Source: a virus
Strand: one strand, 5' to 3'
Virus record (IMG/VR): IMGVR_UViG_3300030331_001818
Location: 1-35,294 of that record
Length of the DNA stretch: 35,294 bases
Shown: piece by piece, positions 736-33,482 of the stretch
How the letters are laid out: every line of letters starts with the position of its first letter
Position numbering within the stretch: position 1 is the first letter of the stretch
Position numbers and translations under genes: made by a program
Notes under the pieces: generated by a model
Seen by the model: only the letters and a program-made list of their open reading frames with translations
The model's database searches: none
Told to the model about the DNA's origin: nothing

Positions 736-774
736 AGCTGGTAAAACCTACATACTTTATTAATTATAAGTTTG

Positions 775-782
775 TATATTTG
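775..782 (+). promoter_or_regulatory. Putative -7 box of the groEL-groES operon (TATATTTG)
   Basis: TATATTTG fits TAnnTTTG and lies 23 bases before the groEL ATG at 806. No obvious -33 element or ribosome binding site is seen; the leader is AT-rich, as is usual for genes of Bacteroidota. Confidence 0.5.
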
Positions 783-805: not shown

Positions 806-2434
806 ATGAACCCACAAGCAGGAGGCTACACGCCTAAAGACCTGAGATTTGGAGACTCAGGCAGAACATCACTAATCAAAGGAATCACACAAATCGCTAA
901 CGCTGTAAAATCTACACTAGGCCCAAGAGGTCATACTGTGTTGATAGAATCTCCAAGCCAATCACAAGGCATGACAGTTACCAAAGATGGAGTTACTGTT
1001 GCTCGTTCTGTAAACTTACTACACCCCGTAGAAAATTTAGCAGTCACTATGATGAAGCAAGCAGCAAACAATACTGCAACCTCAGCTGGAGATGGAACTA
1101 CAACTGCGATTGTTTTGACAGAGGCATTAGTAAAAGCTGGTGATGAGTTAATGAAACAGAATGTTAATCGAACAGAAATACTACGTGCAATAAACACAGA
1201 GCTTGACAACATTGTGAAAGAACTGAAAAAGCATTCACAAAAAATTACAAAGCGTAGATTGAAAGACGTTGCTGTTATATCTGCAAACGGAGATAAAGAT
1301 ATAGGAACTATTATATCAGACACGTACAATCAAGTTGGTAAGAATGGAATCGTTACGGTCGAGCGTTCTCAGACAAGTGATACTTATAGTGAAGTTACTA
1401 CAGGCATAAAGGTTGAGAAAGGAATGAACTCTCCTTTGTTTATCAACGACCAAAAGAAAGACGAGTGTATTATGGAAGACGTACACATACTTGTGTGTGA
1501 TAATACAGTTGAAAACATTTTGAATATTGAAGGCATACTGAAACCAATCATTCAACAAAACAAAAGATTACTATTGATTTGTAATGTAAGTGAGAATGTA
1601 TTGAATACTTTGGCAGCAAACGTTGTAAAGAAAAAATTAAATGTATGTCAAATCTCTCCACCACAATTTGGTTACAAACAACAAGAGCTTATGCAAGATA
1701 TTGCTGTGTCAGTGAACGCAAAATATTTTTCAGAAAAAACTGGTGATGATTTAAGCCTGATTACTTTTAATGACTTAGGTCATGCTTCCAAGGTGATAGT
1801 TGGGAGAGACTCTACAGTCATTATCAAAGACCCCGAAGTTACGGATGCTGTAGTAGAGGAAAGAGTAAAACAACTGTGGGACAGTCATAAGTTGGCGACA
1901 AAAAAAGCAGATAAAGATTTTATCTTATCTCGAATAGCATCTTTGACTGGGGGGATTGGTGTGATACATGTCGGTGGTCAAACTGACTTGGAACAAAAAG
2001 AATTATATGACAGAGTAGATGATGCGGTATGTGCTGTACGCTCTGCTTTGACAGAAGGTATACTACCTGGTGGTGGAACGGTTCTATATAGTATAGCCAA
2101 AGAATATGAAAAGCTTTCAGATACCTGCAAAAAAAATTCTCGAAAAATTGCTTACGCAATTTTAGGTAGAGCCTTGAAGGCTCCACTTGAGCAGATACTT
2201 GAGAATGCTGGATTGAATGCAGATGAAATCTATGAAGGTATAATACACCCACGCCACGGGTATGATGTTAAAAATGAAATGTATGGAGACTTGCTTGAAC
2301 TAGGAGTCATTGACCCATTGAAAGTTACCAAGCACGCATTGATGAATGCAGTGTCAGTTGCAACAACCATACTTAGTACTAACGCTATTATAACAATGGC
2401 AAGAACATATGAAGCAAATGCAGCCACTCAATAA
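806..2434 (+). CDS. groEL: Phage-encoded GroEL (60-kDa chaperonin)
   Basis: This is a near full-length GroEL of 542 residues, the ATP-driven ring chaperone that folds client proteins with GroES. Nucleotide-binding motifs are intact: KDGVTVAR (60-67), AGDGTTT (94-100), the GGG loop (422-424) and DPLKVT (503-508). By alignment in my head, the residues equal to E. coli D52, D87 and D398 are D61, D96 and D406, so ATPase activity is expected. In the apical client site, E. coli Y199, Y203 and F204 become M207, L211 and F212: still hydrophobic but different. The C-terminal Gly-Gly-Met tail is absent; the protein ends EANAATQ. It heads an operon with groES, whose start lies inside its last codons. 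The divergent sequence suggests a phage version rather than recent host capture. Confidence 0.97.
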   Translation: MNPQAGGYTPKDLRFGDSGRTSLIKGITQIANAVKSTLGPRGHTVLIESPSQSQGMTVTKDGVTVARSVNLLHPVENLAVTMMKQAANNTATSAGDGTTTAIVLTEALVKAGDELMKQNVNRTEILRAINTELDNIVKELKKHSQKITKRRLKDVAVISANGDKDIGTIISDTYNQVGKNGIVTVERSQTSDTYSEVTTGIKVEKGMNSPLFINDQKKDECIMEDVHILVCDNTVENILNIEGILKPIIQQNKRLLLICNVSENVLNTLAANVVKKKLNVCQISPPQFGYKQQELMQDIAVSVNAKYFSEKTGDDLSLITFNDLGHASKVIVGRDSTVIIKDPEVTDAVVEERVKQLWDSHKLATKKADKDFILSRIASLTGGIGVIHVGGQTDLEQKELYDRVDDAVCAVRSALTEGILPGGGTVLYSIAKEYEKLSDTCKKNSRKIAYAILGRALKAPLEQILENAGLNADEIYEGIIHPRHGYDVKNEMYGDLLELGVIDPLKVTKHALMNAVSVATTILSTNAIITMARTYEANAATQ

Positions 2435-2675
2435 GTATATCGCAGTAGATATAATCGATGAAGAAATAACTACAGACTCAGGATTGTTATTATCAGACAA
2501 AGACAAGGACGCTCTTAGGTATAGAAAAGCCAAAGTAATCAAGCCAGGGACAGAAGTGCAAAACTTAAAAGCTAATGATATTATATATTATGATAGTCGT
2601 AGCGGTTACACTATGCTAATAGACAACAAGCCTTGTACTATTATTTCTGAGAGAGACGTTGTTGTTGTCGTATAG
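2409..2675 (+). CDS. groES: Phage-encoded GroES-like co-chaperonin
   Basis: This 88-residue protein has the length and layout of GroES: MQPLNKYIAVDIID opens the beta-barrel, a flexible segment around residues 21-36 stands where the mobile loop contacts GroEL (E-E-I-T-T-D-S-G-L-L-L), and the end, DNKPCTIISERDVVVVV, matches the closing strand of the family. It would cap the ring made by the upstream GroEL. It overlaps the groEL end by 26 bases if translation begins at 2409, or by 17 bases from the second ATG at 2418, which would suit the usual GroES start better. The order groEL then groES is the reverse of the usual bacterial operon. Its end overlaps the end of the opposing winged-helix gene. 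Confidence 0.9.
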   Translation: MKQMQPLNKYIAVDIIDEEITTDSGLLLSDKDKDALRYRKAKVIKPGTEVQNLKANDIIYYDSRSGYTMLIDNKPCTIISERDVVVVV

Positions 2676-3072
2676 ACTTATTCATTTCTTTTATAAAGTT
2701 TCTATACACTTTATCTGTGTAGGAAACCTTACGTAAAAACATAGGATTAGTTTTAGAACTAGGTATTTCTTCTCCGTTTAGTTTTTTGTATATACTGTTT
2801 ATTACACGCTTTGCTTTGTAAGATAATTCATACAACGCTTTTTGTTTACCAGAACGTTTTCTAAATACTACTATCCACTTCTCTTTCAACAACTTATCGA
2901 ATCTATTTACATTCCAACTTAATAGTTCGTCAAACTCTTGAAACTTATCTTTACTAAAGTAATCTTCGGTGTAGAGAAACAATAACATATCTAGTTCTCC
3001 AGTGGTAAGACCATACTGTGATTTTATCCAATAACGGACAACTCTCCAGTATTTTAAATAATCAAATTGCAT
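2641..3072 (-). CDS. Winged-helix (MarR-like) DNA-binding protein
   Basis: This is the only minus-strand gene found. The 143-residue basic protein has the pattern of a winged helix: YGLTTGELDMLLFLY (about 20-34, first helices), a helix-turn-helix with LSWNVNRFDKLLKEKWIVVF (51-70), then a wing RKRSGKQKALYELSYKAKRV (71-90). The spacing from first helix to wing matches MarR/phage-type transcription factors, though similarity is by pattern only. It could regulate the facing chaperonin operon or the forward gene cluster starting at 3110, whose promoter overlaps its own upstream region. Its 3' end overlaps the 3' end of groES by 35 bases, so convergent transcripts would be complementary there. The lone orientation suggests separate, perhaps early, expression. 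Confidence 0.75.
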   Translation of the reverse strand: MQFDYLKYWRVVRYWIKSQYGLTTGELDMLLFLYTEDYFSKDKFQEFDELLSWNVNRFDKLLKEKWIVVFRKRSGKQKALYELSYKAKRVINSIYKKLNGEEIPSSKTNPMFLRKVSYTDKVYRNFIKEMNKSIRQQQRLSQK

Positions 3073-15496: not shown

Positions 15497-15774
15497 ATTC
15501 AAAACAAATTAAATTAAGAATTATTGCAGCAGGAGAAAAAGCTGTGAATGAATTGATAAAAGTTGCAGGAGAAAAAATCATCAAACATGACCCAGAAGAT
15601 GATTTATCTGCGGACAGATTAAAAAATGCAGCTGCAACAAAAAAATTAGCAGTGTTTGATGCATTTGAAATACTTAACAGAATACAAACAGAAACAGAAA
15701 ATATGAAGTTAGCTGAAAAAGGAATTTTAAAAACTGATACAAAACAAGGCTTTGCAGAAAGAAACTCAAAATAA
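15481..15774 (+). CDS. Conserved pre-terminase protein, small terminase candidate
   Basis: The 97-residue protein is helical. After a basic start, it has IIAAGEKAVNELIKVAGEKI and DDLSADRLKNAAATKKLAVF, then DAFEILNRIQTETENMK. The D-D-L-S-A-D-x-x-K-N-A-A-A-T-K-K block is one I recall from phages of Bacteroidota in the gene right before the large terminase. Position and helical character fit a small terminase subunit, but no DNA-binding motif is proven. It overlaps the previous gene by 16 bases and the large terminase start by 23 bases. Confidence 0.65.
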   Translation: MEKKLNSKQIKLRIIAAGEKAVNELIKVAGEKIIKHDPEDDLSADRLKNAAATKKLAVFDAFEILNRIQTETENMKLAEKGILKTDTKQGFAERNSK

Positions 15775-17998
15775 ATTATATCAAAAGTTATATGACGTAA
15801 TTCCAAAAAACGTTTTATCAAAGAAAAATAAAAACAAAAGTTGGAAATACGGATATGATGAAAAATATGATATTATTATCATTTCCAAAACAGGACAGAT
15901 TGGAGATATAATATCAATCAGTGGTTTAGTTATTGCTTTGCCTTTGAGTCCGCAAAATGGTCGCACACGACCAAAAAATACAAAAGAACAATATTGGGTT
16001 CGTAAAGAATATCCAAAAGCTTTGGCAAAAGTTTCAAGTATATTTACTTGGAATGATATGCCTACAGCTTTCAAAGAATTATGGGTAGATTACATTGAAG
16101 AAGAATTTGAAAGGAGAGAAAAAGGATATTGGTTTTGGAACAATGGTGTGCATACATATATTACTGGTTCACATTACATGTATCTTCAGTGGACTAAAAT
16201 TGACATTGGCTACCCTGATTTTCGAGAAGCCAATAGACTTTTTTATATCTATTGGGAAGCTTGCAAAGCAGATAAACGCAGTTTCGGCATTTGTTATTTA
16301 AAAATAAGACGTTCAGGTTTTTCTTTTATGGGCTCTGAGGAATGTGCTAACATTGCTACTATATCAAAAGATTCTCGTATTGGAATCTTGTCAAAAACTG
16401 GAGCTGATGCAAAAAAAATGTTTACTGATAAAGTAGTTCCTATTACAAACAATTATCCTTTCTTTTTCAAACCAATTCAAGATGGTATGGATAAGCCAAA
16501 AACCGAATTAGCTTTTCGTGTCCCCGCTTCAAAGATTACAAAAAAAAATATGCATCTAGAAGATGAGTTTGAAATGGACGGATTAGACACTACTATTGAC
16601 TGGAAGAATACTGACGACAACTCTTATGATGGAGAAAAGTTATTATTGTTAGTACACGATGAAAGTGGTAAGTGGATAAAGCCTAATGACATTTTGAATA
16701 ACTGGCGTGTAACAAAAACTTGTTTGAGGTTAGGTAGAAAAATCATAGGCAAATGTATGATGGGCTCTACATCAAATGCACTTAGTAAAGGTGGAAGTAG
16801 TTTTAAAAAGCTGTATGAAGATTCAGATATAACAAAACGAAATGCTAATGGTCAAACAAAAAGTGGCCTTTACAGTTTGTTTATACCTATGGAATGGAAT
16901 ATGGAAGGTTTTATTGATAAGTATGGTATGCCTGTACTATCAAACATACAAGAACCTGTCGTTGGTATCGATGATGAAGAAATAAATATTGGTGCAATAG
17001 ATTATTGGAAAAACGAAGTTGATTCACTCAAGCAAGATTCAAATGCTTTGAATGAATTTTACAGACAATTTCCACGTACTGAATCACATGCGTTCAGGGA
17101 CGAAAGCAACCAATCCTTATTCAATCTTACTAAAATATATCAACAAATAGATTATAATGATTCTCTATTGATAGACCAGCATATTAGTGTAGGTAATTTT
17201 AGATGGAAAAATGGTGTTAAAGATACTGAGGTTGTTTTTAGTCCTGATACAAGAGGTAGGTTTAAATTATCCTGGATACCTGAAAAAAATTTAAGAAACA
17301 GGGTTTTAAAAAAGAATGGAATATATTATCCTGGAAATGAACACATTGGTTCGTTTGGTTGTGATAGCTATGATATATCTGGAACTGTTGGAGGTAAAGG
17401 GTCAAATGGAGCTTTGCATGGTATGACAAAGTTTAACATGGATAAAGCTCCAAGTAATACATTTTTTTTAGAATATGTTGCTAGACCACAAACTGCTGAA
17501 ATATTTTTTGAAGAAGTATTGATGGCATGCGTATTTTATGGTATGCCTCTTTTGTGCGAAAACAATAAACCTAGATTACTATATCATTTTAAAAATAGAG
17601 GTTACAGAGGTTTTAGTCTTAATAGACCAGACAAAACATACAACAAACTTTCAAAGACAGAAAAAGAATTAGGAGGCATACCTAATTCAAGTGAAGATGT
17701 AAAACAATCTCATGCAGCGGCAATAGAGTCGTATATTGAAAAGCATGTTGGTCTTGATTTACAAGGTAACTTTAGAAGTAAAGATGAAATGGGAGATATG
17801 ATTTTTACCAGGACTTTAGAAGACTGGGCTAAGTTTGATATAAATAATCGAACTAAATTTGACGCATCAATTAGCTCGGGTTTAGCCATTATGGCAAATC
17901 AAAAACACTTGTATACACCTGTTAAAAAACAATCAAAAATAAGCATTAACTTTGCAAGATATGCTAATAGTGGAATATATAGTGAATTAGTACAATAA
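15752..17998 (+). CDS. Terminase large subunit
   Basis: This 748-residue protein is the motor and nuclease that packages DNA. The N-terminal ATPase shows the adenine/region block PDFREANRLFYIYWEACKAD (155-174), a deviant Walker A (IRRSGFS, 185-191), Walker B with catalytic Glu (LLLLVHDE, 297-304) and a coupling motif MMGSTSN (336-342). A nuclease domain follows, with GCDSYDIS (536-543) as first acidic motif (D538) and other acidic residues to the end. The block ITGSHYMYLQWTKIDIG (137-153) is typical of crAss-like terminases as I recall. The most likely start is TTG 15752, as no ATG lies near; it overlaps the previous gene. Length is slightly above the common range for the family, in keeping with crAss-like versions. 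Confidence 0.93.
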   Translation: MQKETQNKLYQKLYDVIPKNVLSKKNKNKSWKYGYDEKYDIIIISKTGQIGDIISISGLVIALPLSPQNGRTRPKNTKEQYWVRKEYPKALAKVSSIFTWNDMPTAFKELWVDYIEEEFERREKGYWFWNNGVHTYITGSHYMYLQWTKIDIGYPDFREANRLFYIYWEACKADKRSFGICYLKIRRSGFSFMGSEECANIATISKDSRIGILSKTGADAKKMFTDKVVPITNNYPFFFKPIQDGMDKPKTELAFRVPASKITKKNMHLEDEFEMDGLDTTIDWKNTDDNSYDGEKLLLLVHDESGKWIKPNDILNNWRVTKTCLRLGRKIIGKCMMGSTSNALSKGGSSFKKLYEDSDITKRNANGQTKSGLYSLFIPMEWNMEGFIDKYGMPVLSNIQEPVVGIDDEEINIGAIDYWKNEVDSLKQDSNALNEFYRQFPRTESHAFRDESNQSLFNLTKIYQQIDYNDSLLIDQHISVGNFRWKNGVKDTEVVFSPDTRGRFKLSWIPEKNLRNRVLKKNGIYYPGNEHIGSFGCDSYDISGTVGGKGSNGALHGMTKFNMDKAPSNTFFLEYVARPQTAEIFFEEVLMACVFYGMPLLCENNKPRLLYHFKNRGYRGFSLNRPDKTYNKLSKTEKELGGIPNSSEDVKQSHAAAIESYIEKHVGLDLQGNFRSKDEMGDMIFTRTLEDWAKFDINNRTKFDASISSGLAIMANQKHLYTPVKKQSKISINFARYANSGIYSELVQ

Positions 17999-20434
17999 AT
18001 GAAAGATATAAAAATAGATATATCTAACGTAGGGTTCCCTAGCCAGTATGTGTCAGATGCTGAGAAAGCAACTGAGGAGTATGGTCTGATGATTGGACAA
18101 GCCATACAGTACGAGTGGTTTAGAAAAGATTCATCTTCGTGTAGATACTATAGTCGATGGCAAGACTTTAACAGATTGAGGTTGTATGCAAGAGGCGAAC
18201 AACCAATAGCCAAATATAAAAATGAATTAGCAGTTGACGGAGATTTATCGTATTTAAATCTGGATTGGAGTATTATACCTATAATACCAAAGTTTGTAGA
18301 TTTAGTCGTTAATGGTATGAACGATAGAATGTTCAAAGTAAACGCATATGCTCAAGATGCATTATCACAATCAAAGCGAAGTGCTTTTCAGGATATGGTA
18401 GAAGCACAAATGGTTTCAAAAGAATTGTTGACAAAAATTCAAGAGGGTACAGGTGCTAATCCATTTACAATGTCTCCTGATGATTTACCAAACACCGATG
18501 AAGAACTAGCACTCTATATGCAGCTGAATTATAAACCAGCTATTGAGATTGCAGAAGAAGAAGGAATAGATACAATTTTTGCAGAAAATCATTATGATGA
18601 TATAAGAAGAAGATTAGATTATGATTTAACTGTTTTGGGTATGGCATCTGCTAAACACGAGTTCTTACCAGGTGCTGGAGTAGAAATAAAATATGTTGAC
18701 CCTGCAAACTTAATTCACAGTTATACCGAAGACCCACAATATAAAGATTGTTTTTATTGGGGTGAAATAAAAACTGTTGCTATTACTGAGTTAATGAAAA
18801 TTGACCAGTCTTTAACCGAAGATGATTTGAAAGAAATATCACAGTACAGCCAAATGTGGTATGATTATTTTAACCTTTCTCAATATTACGAAAACAATGT
18901 ATTCTATAAAGACACGGTAACTTTACTTTATTTTAATTATAAAACCACTAAGAAGTATGTTTATAAGAAAAAAGTAAATGAAAATGGTGCTACAAAAATT
19001 ATAGAAAAAGATGATAGTTTCAACCCACCAGAAGAAATGATGGAGGAAAACAACTTCAAAAGAATATCTAAAACTATAGATGTATGGTATGATGGTATTA
19101 TGGTTATGGGTACTAACATTATGTTAAAATGGGAGTTGATGGAAAATATGGTAAGACCAAAGTCAGCATCGCAAGCTGCATTACCAAATTATGTTACTAC
19201 TTCTCCTAGAATGTATAAAGGTAGAATCGAATCTTTGACTAGAAGAATGATTCCATTTGCAGATTTGATTCAGCTTACTCATTTAAAACTACAACAAGTT
19301 ATATCAAGAGTTGTGCCTGATGGTGTCTATATTGACGCAGATGGATTGAATGAGGTTGATTTAGGAACGGGTAACGCTTATAATCCAGAGGATGCTTTGA
19401 GATTATATTTTCAAACGGGTAGTGTTGTTGGTAGAAGTTACACTCAAGAAGGAGACTTTAATCAAGGTAAAGTTCCTATTACACAACTTACATCAAATTC
19501 TGGAGCAAGTAAAACACAAATGCTTATCACTAATATGAACAACTATATTAATATGATAAGACAAGTAACAGGATTAAGTGAAGCTAAAGATGGTAGTACA
19601 CCTGACCCGAATGCTCTAGTTGGAATACAAAAACTTGCAGCTCTAAATTCCAACACAGCCACAAGACATATATTAGATGGCTCTTTATATATTTTCAGAA
19701 CACTAGCGGAGGGTCTTTCTTATCGAATGGCTGATATACTTGAGTATGCTGAGTTTAGAGATGAATTCGCAAATCAAATAGGAAAATATAATGTTAGCAT
19801 TTTGGAAGAAATGAATGATTTATATATTTATGATTTTGGGATATTTATTGAAGTTACTCCTGATGCTGAAGAAAAAGCACAGCTTGAACAAAACATTCAA
19901 ATGGCTTTACAAAAAGGAGATATTAATTTAGAGGACGCAATAGATATAAGAGAGATTCATAATTTAAAGCTGGCCAATCAGCTTTTAAAAATGAAGCGTA
20001 AAACCAAAGAAGAAAAAGACAGACAGTTTGAATTACAGAAACAACAGCAACAAGGACAGCTTCAAATGCAATCACAGCAAATGGCTGCTCAAACTGCTAT
20101 GGAAAAAATACAAGCTGAAAGTCAGGCAAAAATGCAGTTGGAACAAGCTAAAGTTGCTTTTGAAATAGAAAGACTTAATGCAGAGGCTCAACTAAAAGGC
20201 ACATTGATGGAGAAAGAGTTTGGTTACAACCAACAGCTTAGAGACATAAGCGAAAGAGGTTTGAAGCAAAGAGAACTTCAAAGAGAAAACGCAAAAGCCA
20301 AAAGAATAAGTCAAGCTAATTCTGAACAATCAAGACTCATAAATCAAAGGAAAAACAATTTACCTCCACAAAGATTTGAGTCTAATGAAGACAGTTTAGA
20401 TGGTTTTGACTTAGCTGAGTTTGAGCCTAGATAA
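17999..20434 (+). CDS. Portal protein
   Basis: This 811-residue protein is the dodecameric ring at the capsid vertex through which DNA moves. It follows the large terminase directly (stop 17996-17998, start 17999) as portals normally do. The central part, with RLRLYARGEQPIAKYKNELA (near 60-79), ...DLIQLTHLKLQQVISRVVPD and ...ITNMNNYINMIRQVTGLSEA, resembles podovirus/crAss-like portals. The C-terminal 150 residues are Gln/Glu/Lys-rich and coiled-coil-like (QLQMQSQQMAAQTAMEKIQA), matching the inner barrel of long portals. Similarity is from memory and position. Confidence 0.88.
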   Translation: MKDIKIDISNVGFPSQYVSDAEKATEEYGLMIGQAIQYEWFRKDSSSCRYYSRWQDFNRLRLYARGEQPIAKYKNELAVDGDLSYLNLDWSIIPIIPKFVDLVVNGMNDRMFKVNAYAQDALSQSKRSAFQDMVEAQMVSKELLTKIQEGTGANPFTMSPDDLPNTDEELALYMQLNYKPAIEIAEEEGIDTIFAENHYDDIRRRLDYDLTVLGMASAKHEFLPGAGVEIKYVDPANLIHSYTEDPQYKDCFYWGEIKTVAITELMKIDQSLTEDDLKEISQYSQMWYDYFNLSQYYENNVFYKDTVTLLYFNYKTTKKYVYKKKVNENGATKIIEKDDSFNPPEEMMEENNFKRISKTIDVWYDGIMVMGTNIMLKWELMENMVRPKSASQAALPNYVTTSPRMYKGRIESLTRRMIPFADLIQLTHLKLQQVISRVVPDGVYIDADGLNEVDLGTGNAYNPEDALRLYFQTGSVVGRSYTQEGDFNQGKVPITQLTSNSGASKTQMLITNMNNYINMIRQVTGLSEAKDGSTPDPNALVGIQKLAALNSNTATRHILDGSLYIFRTLAEGLSYRMADILEYAEFRDEFANQIGKYNVSILEEMNDLYIYDFGIFIEVTPDAEEKAQLEQNIQMALQKGDINLEDAIDIREIHNLKLANQLLKMKRKTKEEKDRQFELQKQQQQGQLQMQSQQMAAQTAMEKIQAESQAKMQLEQAKVAFEIERLNAEAQLKGTLMEKEFGYNQQLRDISERGLKQRELQRENAKAKRISQANSEQSRLINQRKNNLPPQRFESNEDSLDGFDLAEFEPR

Positions 20435-26946: not shown

Positions 26947-29900
26947 ATGGCTAAAACAACAAGAAATTTTATACAAGGCAGAATGAATAAAAGCGTTGAT
27001 GAACGATTAGTTCCTCAAGGCGAATATATTGATGCTTTAAATGTAAGACTTGGTTCAACTGAAAACTCAGAAATAGGTTCAGTTGAAAACTCAAAGGGTA
27101 ACACGCTTTTAGTTACACCAGAGTTTCCCTCTGGCACAAGCCACGCATGGCAATGTATAGGTGCGTTTGCTGATGAAGCTAATGAAACTATCTACTGGTT
27201 TGTTCACGCAGATTTAGTTAGTATTGGAGCTACGACCAAACTTGATATGATAGTGTCTTATAATAAATTCACACAAGTCGTAACTAACCACGTTGTTAGT
27301 ATTGATGATGGCGGTGGTGTACAAACAACTTTAAATTTTAGTGACACTCATTTAATTAACGGAATAAATAAAGTAGAAAACTTATTGTTTTTTACTGACA
27401 ATTTGAACCCGCCAAGATTCATTGATGTAGATAAAAACTATCCTGACCCTATTGGTAATATTGACCAGTTTTCCGCAGAAAGTATATTGGTTGTTAAAAA
27501 ACCTCCTGTTGCTGCTCCAGCAATTAGATTATTTAACACTACACAAAGTGAAACATATCTAGATGAAAGATTTATTTGTTTTGCGTATAGATATAAATAT
27601 GCAAACAATGAATACTCTGCTACATCACAATTTTCTTTACCAGCATTTACTCCTGAACAATTTAATTTAAGTCTTGACAGTGGCTTAAATGAAGGAATGA
27701 TAAATGCTTTTAACACAGCAGAAATTACATATAACACTGGCGGTTCTTTAGTAACTGAAATACAATTGTTATTTAAAGAATCAACAAACAACATAGTAAA
27801 AATTATCGAATCGTTCAATAAGGCAGAATTAGGTTTGGGTGACAACAATGATGAAACTTTTATTTTTGACAATAGCAAAATATTTACCATACTACCAGAT
27901 TCAGAAATTTTAAGACTTTATGATAACGTTCCTTTATTAGCCAAAGCTCAAACTGTTATGGGTAACAGACTAATGTATGGGAATTATTTTGAGGGTTATG
28001 ATTTAGTTGACTCAAATAATAATCCTATACAATTTAACTATGAAGCAAGTTTACAAGCGACAGATATTAATGAAACAATTCTTACACCAGTTTTATCTAC
28101 TGGTACTTACCAAATAGATTGTACAACAGGTAGTTCACCAGTTACTACAACATCAGCTGATGCTGTTATGGGTGTGTTTCTAACAGAAGACGGAACTGCT
28201 TCTGGAGTTCCTATTCCTTTGAAAAGCGGGAACGTACTTGATTTTGATTTTAATTTTATACATAATCAATTTACTGGTGATATAAGCGGAAGTTTTAGTC
28301 CACCAACAGCAACCACTCCATTAACTAATTTAGCATTTACATTTGTATTACCACGTGATTACACTTCTGCTTCTGACTTGGCTACAAGCTCAGAGTTTGT
28401 GTCTTTCATGGGTTCTCCAACTAATATAAAACCTTTAGCACAAAGTAATACTGGTAACACGGTAAGCGATAGATTTAATAGTTTAATGCCATCAGGTTTG
28501 GCTGGTGCGTCTGGTGGTTCTACTACCACTTTAGAAAAATGTTGGAGTGGTACAAAAGATATATTCTGTACAGGAAACACAAGTTTGTTTGACACTGCAT
28601 TTGCAACATTTGCTATCGGCACTAGTTCTACCAATCAAGCTTTTTTAAGTATTCAGCTTATGGCTGTTGCATATGTAGACACTTGTCCTCAAACTGGAGG
28701 AGCAACTGCAACTCAAATATGTTATGAATATTTAAAATTTTCTGGAGCTCAAGCATCTTTTAAAACTTTAAATAATCCACCTAGTTTAAAAAGTAATCGA
28801 AACTATGAAGTGGCTATTGTTTATATGGATGAGTTCAATAGAAGTAGTACACCAATAGTTAGTCCTAACAATGCAGTTGCTGTACCATGTGTGAATGCCG
28901 TTACGAAAAACCAAATTAAAGTAGAGATACCTGTAGCTATGCATCCTCCACAATGGGCGGTTAAATACAAGTTTTGTGTACAGCCTGATAGAAGTGGCTA
29001 TAACACTGTTTATACTAATTTATTTTTTAATGACCCGAAGACAGCAAGAATATGGTGCTTGCTTGAAGGAGAGAATGCACAAAAGGTAGAAAAAGGTGAT
29101 AGACTTATTGTAAAAAGAGATAGTTCAGGCCCTGTAACATCTTGCGTTTATGCAACTGTTTTAGAAAAAGAAGTAAAGATAGATGATTTTATTACTGTAC
29201 CTATACCTGGTTCAAGTGAAAATGCAGTTGTGCCAGCTGGTGCGTATATGGCTATTACACCAAGAGATTTTTCAGCAGCTTTAGACCCTGATGCAGTATT
29301 CAATCCTGGAACCGATGGTATGCTAGCATTTGGTAATGGTAATACAAATTTTTCTAATCCATCTAAAGATAGCAGTTTCGGGCCACAAGTAGCCTATTTG
29401 CTTTCTACCGAAGTAAATTCATCTCCAACTACATCAGACCCACAATTTGCAGACGTTCCTGTTCCTCAAGGAAGTGTTATAAATATGAATTTTAGGTTTG
29501 CAAGATTAGGCCCTGGTGATGGAAATAAAAATTGTGAAAGAGTTATATATGATTTAGAGTTGACTGGATTAGTTGCACAAAACTCTTACGAAAATATGTA
29601 CGATTGGTTTGAAGGTGATAACATTGAATCATTATTAAATACAGGTTTATGGGAAGTCGGTGACTCTGGGTCAGACGGTAATTTTGTTTATGACGATTCT
29701 TTATATTATGGGGGTGCATTGAATAGTGTTTTTCAAGTGGCATCTGCTGCTGCTGGTGGCTTTGGTCAGTTTGTAAAAACTTTTAACATGAGATTTTTCA
29801 GAATGAACAACCCCGCAGGAAATGCAAGTACAAGTAATGCTTTGGGAGTTGTAGTAAGAGGTGGTCGTGCATGTGGGGGAACAGAAAAAAGAAGAAGTAG

Positions 29901-32649
29901 AATTACAATGTCTATTCAGGTATTTACTAGTGAAAATACTTTAGTGTTTGAAACAGAGCCACTAGATGCAGCTCCTGGGATATTTTTTGAAGGCTCTGAT
30001 ACATTTGATATAACTGGAGGCTTTCATCAATCTGGAAGTTCTGCTGGTGACCAAAATCAAACAGGAACACTACCTGGAATAGTCACTATAGCTGCATCAA
30101 ATTGTTTTACTTTTGGAAATGGTGTAGAAAGTAATAAGATAAGAGATTCTATATCAGGAAAAGATTTTAATTTGGGTAATAGAGTATATGGTGCCACTGA
30201 ACAAATATATAAAAGAGCTCATAGATTTGCAGACATAACTTACAGTGGTATTTATAATGACGAATCAAACATAAATAAACTTAATGAATTTAACTTAGGA
30301 CTTGTAAACTTTAAATTGTGTGAAGATATTTATGGGCCTATAGAAGTTTTGTCAGGGAGAAAAACTGATGTTCTTACTTTACAAGAAGATAAAATATCAT
30401 ATGTATTAGCAGGTAAAAATTTATTGTCAGATGCCACAGGTGGTAGTGCACTAACTTCTGTCCCTGAAGTTTTAGGGACACAAATATCTAGGATAGAAAA
30501 ATATGGTATTAGTAATAATCCAGAAAGTTTTACAGAATGGGGTGCGGACAAGTTTTTTACTGATGCAAAAAGAGGAGCTGTAATACAATTAAAAGGTGGT
30601 AGTGCACAAGACGAAAGACTTGGTGTTGTATCCGAAGTAGGTATGCGTGGCTATTTTAGAGATTTATTTAATGAATCTCTTAGGTTTCAAAAAATTGGTG
30701 GGTTTGACCCTTACATGAATGAATATGTTTTAAGTTTTAACAACACAAAACTACCATTAGAAGATGCGGTCTATGCGTGTGGTATGTCTAATACTTTACA
30801 AGTTGTTGCTGGTACAGATGAAACAGTAAAATATCAACTCACTGAAGTTTCAGGTAATGCACGTTTGAATTATGCTTTTGGCGATGGTAGTGGAAGCACA
30901 ACAGAAATAAAAGCTGAATGGGTAGATGGTTCTGGAGTTACTCAAACCGCTACTAGTGGGCCTGTAAGTACGGATGGTTTTATTACAATTGTTAGAGATG
31001 TACCTTCTATTACACTAGTTACTATTACACTTATACAAACAGCGGGTAATCAGTTTGTGACTTTGACGCAAGATTGTCCATTGTCAAACACTTTAAATAT
31101 AGTTCAAGTTTGTGTAACAAATGACGATGAAAACACGTTGTCTTCTTTCAATCAATATTTTTGGAATACTTTTTCAGGAACACCAACACCGCCATTTTAC
31201 ACTAGTCCAACATTTACGTCTGCTACAACCTCAACATTTGTTGATTTTGCTGAAGGAAGTTCATCGCCAGTTGTTTCGCAGTATTCAATACAAACAGGAC
31301 AAACAGGGCAAAGTGGTTTTCCACCAACTGGCTCGTATGTTACATTATTGTCAAACCAAATATCTCCAGCTAATTTTACGTTTGATTTAGCTAATGATAA
31401 ATTTAAGTTTTTAAATAGTAATACTTTGTATAATAACACCGCAGCTGACATCACCAGTTTATTAAACTTGGCTACAAATGCCACGCCTATAACAGAAGAA
31501 GTTGCAGGAGTTAAATACAGTGCACAGTTTATTAGACCAGCTTCTAATACTACATATTTATATTTAATTTGGGATTATAGAAGTGTGCAAGCTACAAACT
31601 TAAGTTATCAGGTTGGTACTGGAGACTTTGCTGCTGATACTTTTGCGGCATGTTGTGTCAACACACCAGCTCCGTACTTCTTAGATGGTGCAACATTATC
31701 TAGTTCAAATGTAGTTTACGCATCAGCTCAACAATCAGTACCTGCTAATGATGGGTATTATAGTGATGGAACTGTTGTAAGACTACAAAAACTAGGATTA
31801 CTTCAAAACATAATTCCTTGCTTGTGTGGTGTTTCATGTGGAAATGTAGGTATCAATTGGAAAACTACCTTAACGGCTGTTTTAAAATCTAGACATACTT
31901 TTACGTCAAACGGTGCAGTTATAGTAAGGTTTATTCCATTTGATATGCCTGTTGGTATTAAAGTTACATATGACGGTGTAATATATAATAAATGGTCGTC
32001 AAGTATTTTTGGTGATGTCGCTCCAAACAGTTTGAATACACCAGTATTTTTAGGAGACTCAAATCAAGGAACACCTCCTTCTGCTGGCAACTATGCTGTT
32101 CTTGAACTAAATTCGTTGTCTCAATATCAAATTGTTCCAAATACAACACAGTTTGTTTCTGTAGGTTCAGGACAAATCAAGACTACAGCTGCAAACCCTG
32201 GTGTTTGTACTATAGTAGTTCCAGCAACTAACCCAGCAATACAATATTTGGATATTGAAGTATATAATTTAATAAGCAACAATGATGGTCTTTCTAAAAC
32301 ATTTAGTGTTGAGTGTCCTGCTAATTTAGTATCATTTACTTCAAGTGATGTTACTAGAAGCACTGCAACATCGGGTGGTGGTGCATGTTTAGACCCTAAT
32401 GACGCTAGAAGTTTATTCCGTCAACCAAACATACCAGCTCAAGCTATTATATCAGTAAACGACCAAATTTATGCAAACAACAATGGAGATTTAGCTGTTA
32501 ACACAGACCCTACTTCACCTGGTTATGGCAACAGAGCTTTTAGTGCTGGTGGATGGATAAGAGTAGAACAACAAGCTAACGGAGTAACAGCAATACTGTT
32601 AAGTGATGAAAGTATAGTAACCCAGGTAGCTACAGTTTGTGCACCATAA
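26947..32649 (+). CDS. Large tail stabilisation protein (P22 gp10-like)
   Basis: This 1900-residue protein is the largest in the window. Its N-terminus has FIQGRMNKSVDERLVPQGEY (8-27), then a block N-V-R-L-G-S-x-E-N-S-E-I-G-S-V-E-N, which is the signature start of the stabilisation proteins of crAss-like and related podoviruses. Later parts are Cys-containing beta domains, including one with FGDGSGSTTEIKAEWVDGSG (residues near 1315-1335) that resembles an Ig/PKD-type insert. It probably plugs and lengthens the tail tube under the ring proteins and carries surface domains. Compared with P22 gp10 (about 470 residues) it is very long. The next gene encodes a part I recall at the end of similar proteins. 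Confidence 0.85.
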   Translation: MAKTTRNFIQGRMNKSVDERLVPQGEYIDALNVRLGSTENSEIGSVENSKGNTLLVTPEFPSGTSHAWQCIGAFADEANETIYWFVHADLVSIGATTKLDMIVSYNKFTQVVTNHVVSIDDGGGVQTTLNFSDTHLINGINKVENLLFFTDNLNPPRFIDVDKNYPDPIGNIDQFSAESILVVKKPPVAAPAIRLFNTTQSETYLDERFICFAYRYKYANNEYSATSQFSLPAFTPEQFNLSLDSGLNEGMINAFNTAEITYNTGGSLVTEIQLLFKESTNNIVKIIESFNKAELGLGDNNDETFIFDNSKIFTILPDSEILRLYDNVPLLAKAQTVMGNRLMYGNYFEGYDLVDSNNNPIQFNYEASLQATDINETILTPVLSTGTYQIDCTTGSSPVTTTSADAVMGVFLTEDGTASGVPIPLKSGNVLDFDFNFIHNQFTGDISGSFSPPTATTPLTNLAFTFVLPRDYTSASDLATSSEFVSFMGSPTNIKPLAQSNTGNTVSDRFNSLMPSGLAGASGGSTTTLEKCWSGTKDIFCTGNTSLFDTAFATFAIGTSSTNQAFLSIQLMAVAYVDTCPQTGGATATQICYEYLKFSGAQASFKTLNNPPSLKSNRNYEVAIVYMDEFNRSSTPIVSPNNAVAVPCVNAVTKNQIKVEIPVAMHPPQWAVKYKFCVQPDRSGYNTVYTNLFFNDPKTARIWCLLEGENAQKVEKGDRLIVKRDSSGPVTSCVYATVLEKEVKIDDFITVPIPGSSENAVVPAGAYMAITPRDFSAALDPDAVFNPGTDGMLAFGNGNTNFSNPSKDSSFGPQVAYLLSTEVNSSPTTSDPQFADVPVPQGSVINMNFRFARLGPGDGNKNCERVIYDLELTGLVAQNSYENMYDWFEGDNIESLLNTGLWEVGDSGSDGNFVYDDSLYYGGALNSVFQVASAAAGGFGQFVKTFNMRFFRMNNPAGNASTSNALGVVVRGGRACGGTEKRRSRITMSIQVFTSENTLVFETEPLDAAPGIFFEGSDTFDITGGFHQSGSSAGDQNQTGTLPGIVTIAASNCFTFGNGVESNKIRDSISGKDFNLGNRVYGATEQIYKRAHRFADITYSGIYNDESNINKLNEFNLGLVNFKLCEDIYGPIEVLSGRKTDVLTLQEDKISYVLAGKNLLSDATGGSALTSVPEVLGTQISRIEKYGISNNPESFTEWGADKFFTDAKRGAVIQLKGGSAQDERLGVVSEVGMRGYFRDLFNESLRFQKIGGFDPYMNEYVLSFNNTKLPLEDAVYACGMSNTLQVVAGTDETVKYQLTEVSGNARLNYAFGDGSGSTTEIKAEWVDGSGVTQTATSGPVSTDGFITIVRDVPSITLVTITLIQTAGNQFVTLTQDCPLSNTLNIVQVCVTNDDENTLSSFNQYFWNTFSGTPTPPFYTSPTFTSATTSTFVDFAEGSSSPVVSQYSIQTGQTGQSGFPPTGSYVTLLSNQISPANFTFDLANDKFKFLNSNTLYNNTAADITSLLNLATNATPITEEVAGVKYSAQFIRPASNTTYLYLIWDYRSVQATNLSYQVGTGDFAADTFAACCVNTPAPYFLDGATLSSSNVVYASAQQSVPANDGYYSDGTVVRLQKLGLLQNIIPCLCGVSCGNVGINWKTTLTAVLKSRHTFTSNGAVIVRFIPFDMPVGIKVTYDGVIYNKWSSSIFGDVAPNSLNTPVFLGDSNQGTPPSAGNYAVLELNSLSQYQIVPNTTQFVSVGSGQIKTTAANPGVCTIVVPATNPAIQYLDIEVYNLISNNDGLSKTFSVECPANLVSFTSSDVTRSTATSGGGACLDPNDARSLFRQPNIPAQAIISVNDQIYANNNGDLAVNTDPTSPGYGNRAFSAGGWIRVEQQANGVTAILLSDESIVTQVATVCAP

Positions 32650-32660
32650 AATAATTAAAT

Positions 32661-33482
32661 ATGCCTTTTAGTAATCAAACAATAACATATAGTGAATCAG
32701 TATCAGGCTGGCCATCTTTTTATTCTTTTATACCAGAACAAATATTAGGTATGAACGGCAGATTATATACTTTTAAAAATGGCAAACTGTTTGAACACAA
32801 CTCTGATGTTGCACCACGTAACAACTATTATGGTACACAATTCAATTCTACCATAACAAGCGTATTTAATGAAGCACCTTTAGAAAATAAAATTTTTAAA
32901 ACAATAGGCATACAATCTGATGACCATTGGTCAGCAATTGTTTCTTCAGACATTCAAACAACAGGTTTTATTACTGATTCATTTTTTGAACAAAAAGAAG
33001 GAGCATGGTATGCGTATTTAAGAAACAATGAAGCAAACCCTGTTAGTGGTGAGTTTCCTTTACGTTCTGTTCAGGGTATAGGTATACAATCAGTAAGAAC
33101 AGGAGTCGGTACAAACAACTGTGTTATTACTTTCCCAGCCGATGTTCCTCTACCGTCTGGTATTATGCCAGGTAGTTTGACTACCACAAATGGTGATGTA
33201 GTCTTTTTTACGGTAGCACCTTTTAACACAGTTATGACTCCTAGTTCTACTGGTCAAGTTTTATCTGTAGACAGAGCAAATAATCAAATAACTTTAGATA
33301 ATACAGCTGGAACCGCTTTACCTGCTAGTGGTACAGATGCTTATATATTTATTGTAAAGAATTCTATAGCTGAATCACACGGTATTCTAGGCCATTATGC
33401 TGAGTTTAAACTAACAAATAGCAATACAGCCTCTGTAGAGCTCTTTGCGGTCGATTCAGACATCATGAAAAGTTTCCCTTAA
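32661..33482 (+). CDS. Stabilisation protein companion (C-terminal part as separate gene?)
   Basis: This 273-residue protein has SGWPSFYSFIPEQILGMNGR, then YTFKNGKLFEHNSD and RNNYYGTQFNSTITSVFNEA, PLENKIFKTIGIQSDDHWSA. I recall this sequence style as the last part of crAss-like stabilisation proteins. Here it stands as a separate gene 11 bases after the 1900-residue gene, so the large protein may be split into two chains, or this may be a free partner. A beta block at about residues 155-235 (GDVVFFTVAPFNTVMTPSST, ...ASGTDAYIFIVKNS) resembles the inserts in other virion genes. It belongs to the tail. Confidence 0.78.
   Translation: MPFSNQTITYSESVSGWPSFYSFIPEQILGMNGRLYTFKNGKLFEHNSDVAPRNNYYGTQFNSTITSVFNEAPLENKIFKTIGIQSDDHWSAIVSSDIQTTGFITDSFFEQKEGAWYAYLRNNEANPVSGEFPLRSVQGIGIQSVRTGVGTNNCVITFPADVPLPSGIMPGSLTTTNGDVVFFTVAPFNTVMTPSSTGQVLSVDRANNQITLDNTAGTALPASGTDAYIFIVKNSIAESHGILGHYAEFKLTNSNTASVELFAVDSDIMKSFP

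Follow-up and report, generated by a model that had tools for sequence, protein, structure and literature searches.

A phage-type groEL gene followed by its own groES was found in the window, by which we mean the whole stretch of DNA analysed (35,294 bases, the entire IMG/VR record IMGVR_UViG_3300030331_001818, a linear fragment). Leaving the number of rings aside, the two genes very probably constitute a genuine phage operon, in which a phage GroEL and a phage GroES lid expressed from a host-type promoter would form a private folding cage. The chaperonin pair is a long-standing trait of a phage lineage, and its GroEL belongs to a phage-specific clade. As judged from its residues, the machine could be a single ring whose contact with the lid has been retuned, a reading to which we give nearly an even chance. 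The features of the window are listed in Table 1.

Table 1. Positions of the chaperonin genes, their flanking elements and two marker genes in the window
Feature	Position	Strand	Evidence or remark
Second TAnnTTTG copy, TAAGTTTG	767-774	+	Directly before the box at 775..782
Bacteroidota-type -7 box, TATATTTG (TAnnTTTG)	775..782	+	23 nt upstream of groEL start codon
groEL, 542-aa group I chaperonin without C-terminal GGM tail	806..2434 (ATG 806, TAA 2434)	+	Pfam, PHROGs, NCBIfam, key residues, predicted structure, dN/dS
groES, 88-aa co-chaperonin, mobile loop GLLLS	2409..2675 (ATG 2409, TAG 2675)	+	Pfam Cpn10, PHROG, predicted structure, position downstream of groEL
groEL/groES overlap, different frames	2409..2434	+	26 nt, or 17 nt with the start at ATG 2418; not a lineage-wide trait
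Convergent ORF, 143 aa, possible winged-helix regulator	2641..3072	-	Overlaps groES 3' end by 35 nt; weak MarR/SarA-like similarity
Terminase large subunit, genome-placing marker	15752..17998	+	PHROG 6681, 5.7e-174
Portal protein, genome-placing marker	17999..20434	+	PHROG 6547, 4e-131

A sequence-only reading of the window had described a groEL with intact ATP motifs and an overlapping groES behind it. Both reading frames were recovered, and the ATP-site and catalytic residues are intact in the window and almost without exception invariant in the lineage. The Cpn60 domain of the window GroEL is full-length, with equatorial, intermediate and apical parts (Pfam Cpn60_TCP1, PF00118, 1e-61 over positions 1-488 of 490; PHROG groEL, 3e-132). 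G32, D52, D87 (of GDGTTT) and D398 in E. coli numbering are present in the window and invariant in all 46 of the lineage representatives that were used for residue and promoter counts. GroES matched Pfam Cpn10 (1.7e-9, 38 bits against a cut-off of 21.1) and the groES PHROG (2e-15). Structures were modelled with AlphaFold from lineage alignments. The GroEL model superimposed on solved GroEL structures with Z values of 42-43 over 511-516 residues, and the GroES model (pLDDT 90.6) gave a Z value of 11.6 with Cpn10 structures and 9.2 with T4 gp31. GroES keeps the Cpn10 fold together with a hydrophobic mobile-loop tripeptide. For this gene an alternative start at ATG 2418, yielding 85 aa, is the one used by most relatives.

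The sequences had also been called divergent, and the NCBIfam scores indicate the same for both proteins. The window GroEL reached 446.6 bits with the GroEL equivalog TIGR02348, below its cut-off of 582.1, and is therefore filed under the superfamily rather than as an equivalog of cellular GroEL, while two broader NCBIfam GroEL subfamily models were passed. GroES stayed under every NCBIfam GroES cut-off. Purifying selection acts on both genes: when the window was compared with relatives whose GroEL is 79-90% identical, dN/dS was 0.05-0.09 for groEL and 0.04-0.19 for groES outside the overlap. Among related phage groEL genes, possible decay or assembly errors were seen in two cases, an in-frame TAA in one and a split over two frames in another (G006:C1:50112-51719 and G015:C1:19652-21386; records of L192 and L231).

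Gene order was compared between 80 bacterial loci and a lineage set of 77 loci, made up of 75 IMG/VR loci obtained by scanning, the GenBank podovirus MW202828 (complete, 60.85 kb) and the window. Gene order is reportedly tied to GroEL phylogeny (Marine et al. 2017). In bacteria, groES was located near groEL in 77/80 loci and always came first (77/77), so that the reversed order, which the sequence-only reading had set against bacterial operons, is real. In the lineage, 76 of the 77 loci have groES behind groEL, both on one strand, and the remaining locus is cut by its contig end. The two genes are inherited together. The same reading had proposed a search for this order in related phage genomes, and besides the lineage it was present in Elemovirus and Panino. 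Its notion of a phage-adapted operon stands in part. The operon is complete, under selection and ordered unlike those of bacteria; the overlap does not hold up as an adaptation, as spacing within the lineage ranges from overlaps to +2.2 kb, which rules out a functional role of the overlap as a lineage trait. An overlap of the form seen in the window recurs in few loci beyond its nearest relatives. In seven loci (L010, L023, L052, L054, L067, L069 and L072) groEL and groES are separated by one to four unrelated ORFs, and in L072 a 2.2-kb gap holds four ORFs of 117-273 aa. The junction seems to tolerate insertions while gene order stays intact.

The convergent ORF accompanies the pair. A homologue was present downstream of groES in 75/75 readable loci, with the exact 35-nt tail-to-tail overlap in 45 of them, and Elemovirus and Panino likewise have a homologue downstream of groES. 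The likeness of its product to MarR/SarA winged-helix proteins is weak (best E 0.16). With groEL, groES, this regulator-like ORF and a podovirus background with a P22-like portal, the window holds a cassette of the Elemovirus type.

Upstream of groEL, a TAnnTTTG motif, which we take to be the Bacteroidota -7 promoter box, occurred within 120 nt in 43 of the 46 representatives, compared with 3.6 expected from shuffling, mostly at 24-42 nt before the ATG. This enrichment argues for an operon promoter and for a Bacteroidota host; the host of the window phage is probably a member of that phylum. A scan for sigma-70-type promoters returned no more sites than shuffled sequences, and such a scan is uninformative for Bacteroidota.

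The source genome is a fragment of a podovirus of about 60 kb, related to Elemovirus and Pervagoviridae. It was placed beside Elemovirus because of its terminase, which is 74% identical to that of MW202828 and 48% to that of Elemovirus, and its portal protein, with 71% identity to MW202828, 44% to Elemovirus and 35% to Calle. A related terminase was found in 14/15 contigs of 52-68 kb, all picked for carrying a lineage GroEL, and a GroEL was seen in 7/17 contigs picked by terminase, most of them partial. In one record of 51,291 bases (G001, record of L176) the terminase is 91% identical to that of the window and groEL was not found within the 51 kb; the record may be incomplete or the operon may have been lost. 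No tRNAs were found in the window. The 1900-residue protein encoded at 26947-32649 on the plus strand matched PHROG 14478, a virion structural protein, over residues 6-1547 (8.7e-215), and the product of the next gene (32661-33482) weakly matched part of the same family.

GroEL trees were computed under LG+C20 with 92 and 52 rows. Lineage GroEL formed a clade with 100/100 support and was joined at 100/99 by Elemovirus and Panino, which likewise are groEL-first phages. The flavobacterial phages Calle, phi14:2 and immuto joined next. Several branches are long, those of Elemovirus and Panino among them, which makes the branching order on the flavophage side less certain. Comparison with Bacteroidota and known phage GroELs had been proposed by the sequence-only reading as a check for a recent host capture, that is, the uptake of a host groES-groEL operon that was later rearranged within the phage. 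Other phages have captured a cellular groEL, since DAC20 and a 735-kb phage sit among Bacteroidota in the trees. For the lineage, grouping with Flavobacteriaceae and grouping with all Bacteroidota cells were both rejected (AU p=0.003), and among the sampled cellular GroELs none was more than 37% identical. A search of a bacterial genome collection with the window GroEL gave no prophage or host match and no close relative. Recent capture is rejected by the AU tests, and we regard it as highly improbable.

The columns that form the ring-ring interface of bacterial GroEL behaved differently from the remainder of the protein. The list of ring-contact residues was assembled from what we take to be general knowledge of GroEL, supplemented from PMC5653362. 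Internal diversity was similar in the two groups, with a mean column entropy of 1.05 bits in bacteria and 1.11 in the lineage. At the eight ring-ring contact columns, mean entropy was 3.12 bits in the lineage versus 1.38 in bacteria, and 0 of 1000 conservation-matched draws were as extreme. The alignment around these sites is essentially gapless and anchored. Sequence comparison thus indicates that constraint has been lost at the contact columns, and drift on long branches was rejected as an insufficient cause given the conservation-matched columns. When six contacts were scored, 75/80 bacteria kept 6/6 and lineage members mostly 0-2, numbers that are not independent because the sequences are related. 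The window keeps 0/6, where equally conserved columns would predict 3.46 (P=0.007). The single-ring E. coli mutant SR1 carries R452E, E461A, S463A and V464A (PMC5653362), and the first of these four, R452E, is present in the window.

Other phage GroELs were scored in the same manner. For elemo, Calle, phi14:2, Panino, immuto and Vibrio phage YC, each taken alone, contact loss was within expectation. Phage GroELs near cellular ones (Vibrio phage 2.275.O, the 735-kb phage and DAC20) kept six of six contacts. Vibrio phages K364, 207E48.1 and SD25 kept 1-2 of 6, below the expectation from divergence (loci of this Vibrio, 735-kb and DAC20 set: L078, L079, L080, L082, L087 and L088). Long-diverged phage GroELs of the latter type may represent independent losses of the double ring.

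A normal double ring could persist in the lineage through other contacts, the loss of the known sites then having no effect on ring number. The chaperonin of phage EL, which is 22% identical to GroEL, assembles into double rings through in-register 1:1 contacts unlike those of GroEL, where two rings of seven subunits meet in a staggered manner, and replacement contacts at other residues would be invisible in the tested columns. Against a double ring stand the absence from the window of all six bacterial contact residues, the SR1 mutation R452E and the wide variation of the contact sites within the lineage, where, as expected if contacts were lost rather than swapped, mean entropy reached the 3.12 bits given above. 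We consider a persisting double ring a serious alternative, with somewhat less than an even chance.

The groove that receives the lid is altered as well. Among the 46 representatives, L234E occurred in 46, V264A in 45, V263A in 44 and Y203L in 43, while L237 and N265 of the lid-binding helices are kept. In E. coli GroEL, the mobile-loop tripeptide of GroES is touched by L234, L237 and V264 (PMC3514286). The loop itself differs: lineage GroES has Gly followed by L-L/I-L/M and bacterial GroES Gly followed by I-I/V-I/L, the typical forms being G-L-L-L-S and G-I-I-I-P. A lid that is held in the E. coli manner might bind the altered groove (L234E, V263A, V264A) less tightly or not at all. A shortened GroES segment past the mobile loop was considered as a phage-specific, gp31-like trait and dropped, as GroES of Nitrospirae, Sulfurovum and Helicobacter is equally short there.

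The groove changes also bear on whether the two proteins are partners. Like T4 gp31, phage GroES might serve the GroEL of the host, and phage GroEL might act as a lid-free holdase like the chaperonins of EL, OBP and AR9; lid-free phage chaperonins are known, and two of the three loop-touching E. coli residues are changed (L234E, V264A). If the two functions were unlinked, groES would not be expected to follow groEL in all readable lineage loci. The mobile loop of GroES is specific to the lineage (LLL-S versus III-P), as would be expected of a partner changing along with the groove. Separate roles for the two proteins therefore appear unlikely.

With phage GroEL and phage GroES taken as partners, the proposed mechanism would proceed as follows. 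The host-type promoter upstream of groEL would drive transcription of groEL and then groES. The phage GroEL ring would capture unfolded phage proteins, among which the sequence-only reading had suggested the capsid, fibre and 1900-residue proteins as candidates, and use ATP, and phage GroES would cap the ring. The resulting folding cage would be independent of that of the host. An engineered single-ring GroEL stalled with normal GroES and worked once its grip on GroES was weakened (PMC5575113). Because the engineered ring needs a weakened grip, the groove and contact changes together fit a machine made of one ring that contacts its lid more softly, as far as residues can suggest it. In evolutionary terms, the lineage may have given up the double ring for a single-ring GroEL with its own lid, the grip of which was retuned (L234E, V264A; LLL loop) so that the lid could depart with no second ring to signal its release. 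We hold this scenario tentatively and somewhat short of an even chance.

The sequence-only reading had started from the premise that phage GroEL is known from some large phages. That premise is out of date, because phage GroEL-GroES pairs have already been published, and 248 phage records matched the window GroEL, among them phages of Flavobacterium, Cellulophaga and Maribacter with genomes of 60-77 kb. Phages with homologues of both GroEL and GroES are treated as established in a passage of PMC7185714 that cites Marine et al. 2017. GroEL was reported in 2017 from 36 environmental Bacteroidetes phage genomes akin to Cellulophaga phi38:1 (PMC5332604), Cpn10 counts among the core proteins of Pervagoviridae (PMC8776804), and the Panino paper names both GroEL and GroES (PMC11590407). 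Elemovirus records are annotated with groEL and then groES. The phage pair and the groEL-first order are accordingly known, and the combined signature at the ring contacts and the lid groove is the new part. A complete private chaperonin is a stable inherited trait of widespread Bacteroidota podoviruses of about 60 kb rather than an oddity of giant phages, and the gene order of the lineage is absent from the sampled bacteria. Work on the cycle of a lidded GroEL without a second ring has so far drawn on mitochondria and engineered E. coli mutants. If the single-ring prediction is true, the lineage would offer many natural answers to how such a cycle runs, and a natural parallel both to mitochondrial Hsp60 and to the engineered single-ring GroEL that needs a weakened lid contact.

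Compared with the E. coli GroEL-GroES system, the window shares the fold, the ATP site and a lid-type co-chaperonin. It differs in that E. coli has groES first and in that the window GroEL is 33% identical, lacks the GGM tail and has altered ring contacts and an altered lid groove. The chaperonins of EL, OBP and AR9 are likewise phage-encoded; those of OBP and AR9 consist of one seven-subunit ring, and that of EL separates into single rings. Unlike the window pair, they come from giant phages, work without a co-chaperonin and are far more distant from bacterial GroEL, the EL protein being 27% identical to the window GroEL over part of its length. Pervagoviridae (Cellulophaga phages Calle and phi38:1, about 73 kb) and Bacteroidetes phage group 2 (Nishimura et al. 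2017) resemble the window in having GroEL and Cpn10, a related portal (35%) and flavobacterial hosts, but their genes are arranged as groES, a small ORF and groEL. Panino, a Maribacter phage of 77 kb (L092), has groEL before groES, belongs to the same clade and carries E at the L234 position, whereas its GroEL is 35% identical, a small ORF separates the two genes and its genome is rich in tRNAs. Most similar in layout is Elemovirus (Flavobacterium phages vB_FspP_elemoA-F, podoviruses of about 60 kb; L085), in which groEL and groES lie in this order on one strand, almost abutting, next to a homologous convergent ORF. Its terminase (48%) and portal (44%) are related to those of the window and its GroEL falls in the same phage clade, but that GroEL is 34% identical and keeps L234, and the surrounding genes are different.
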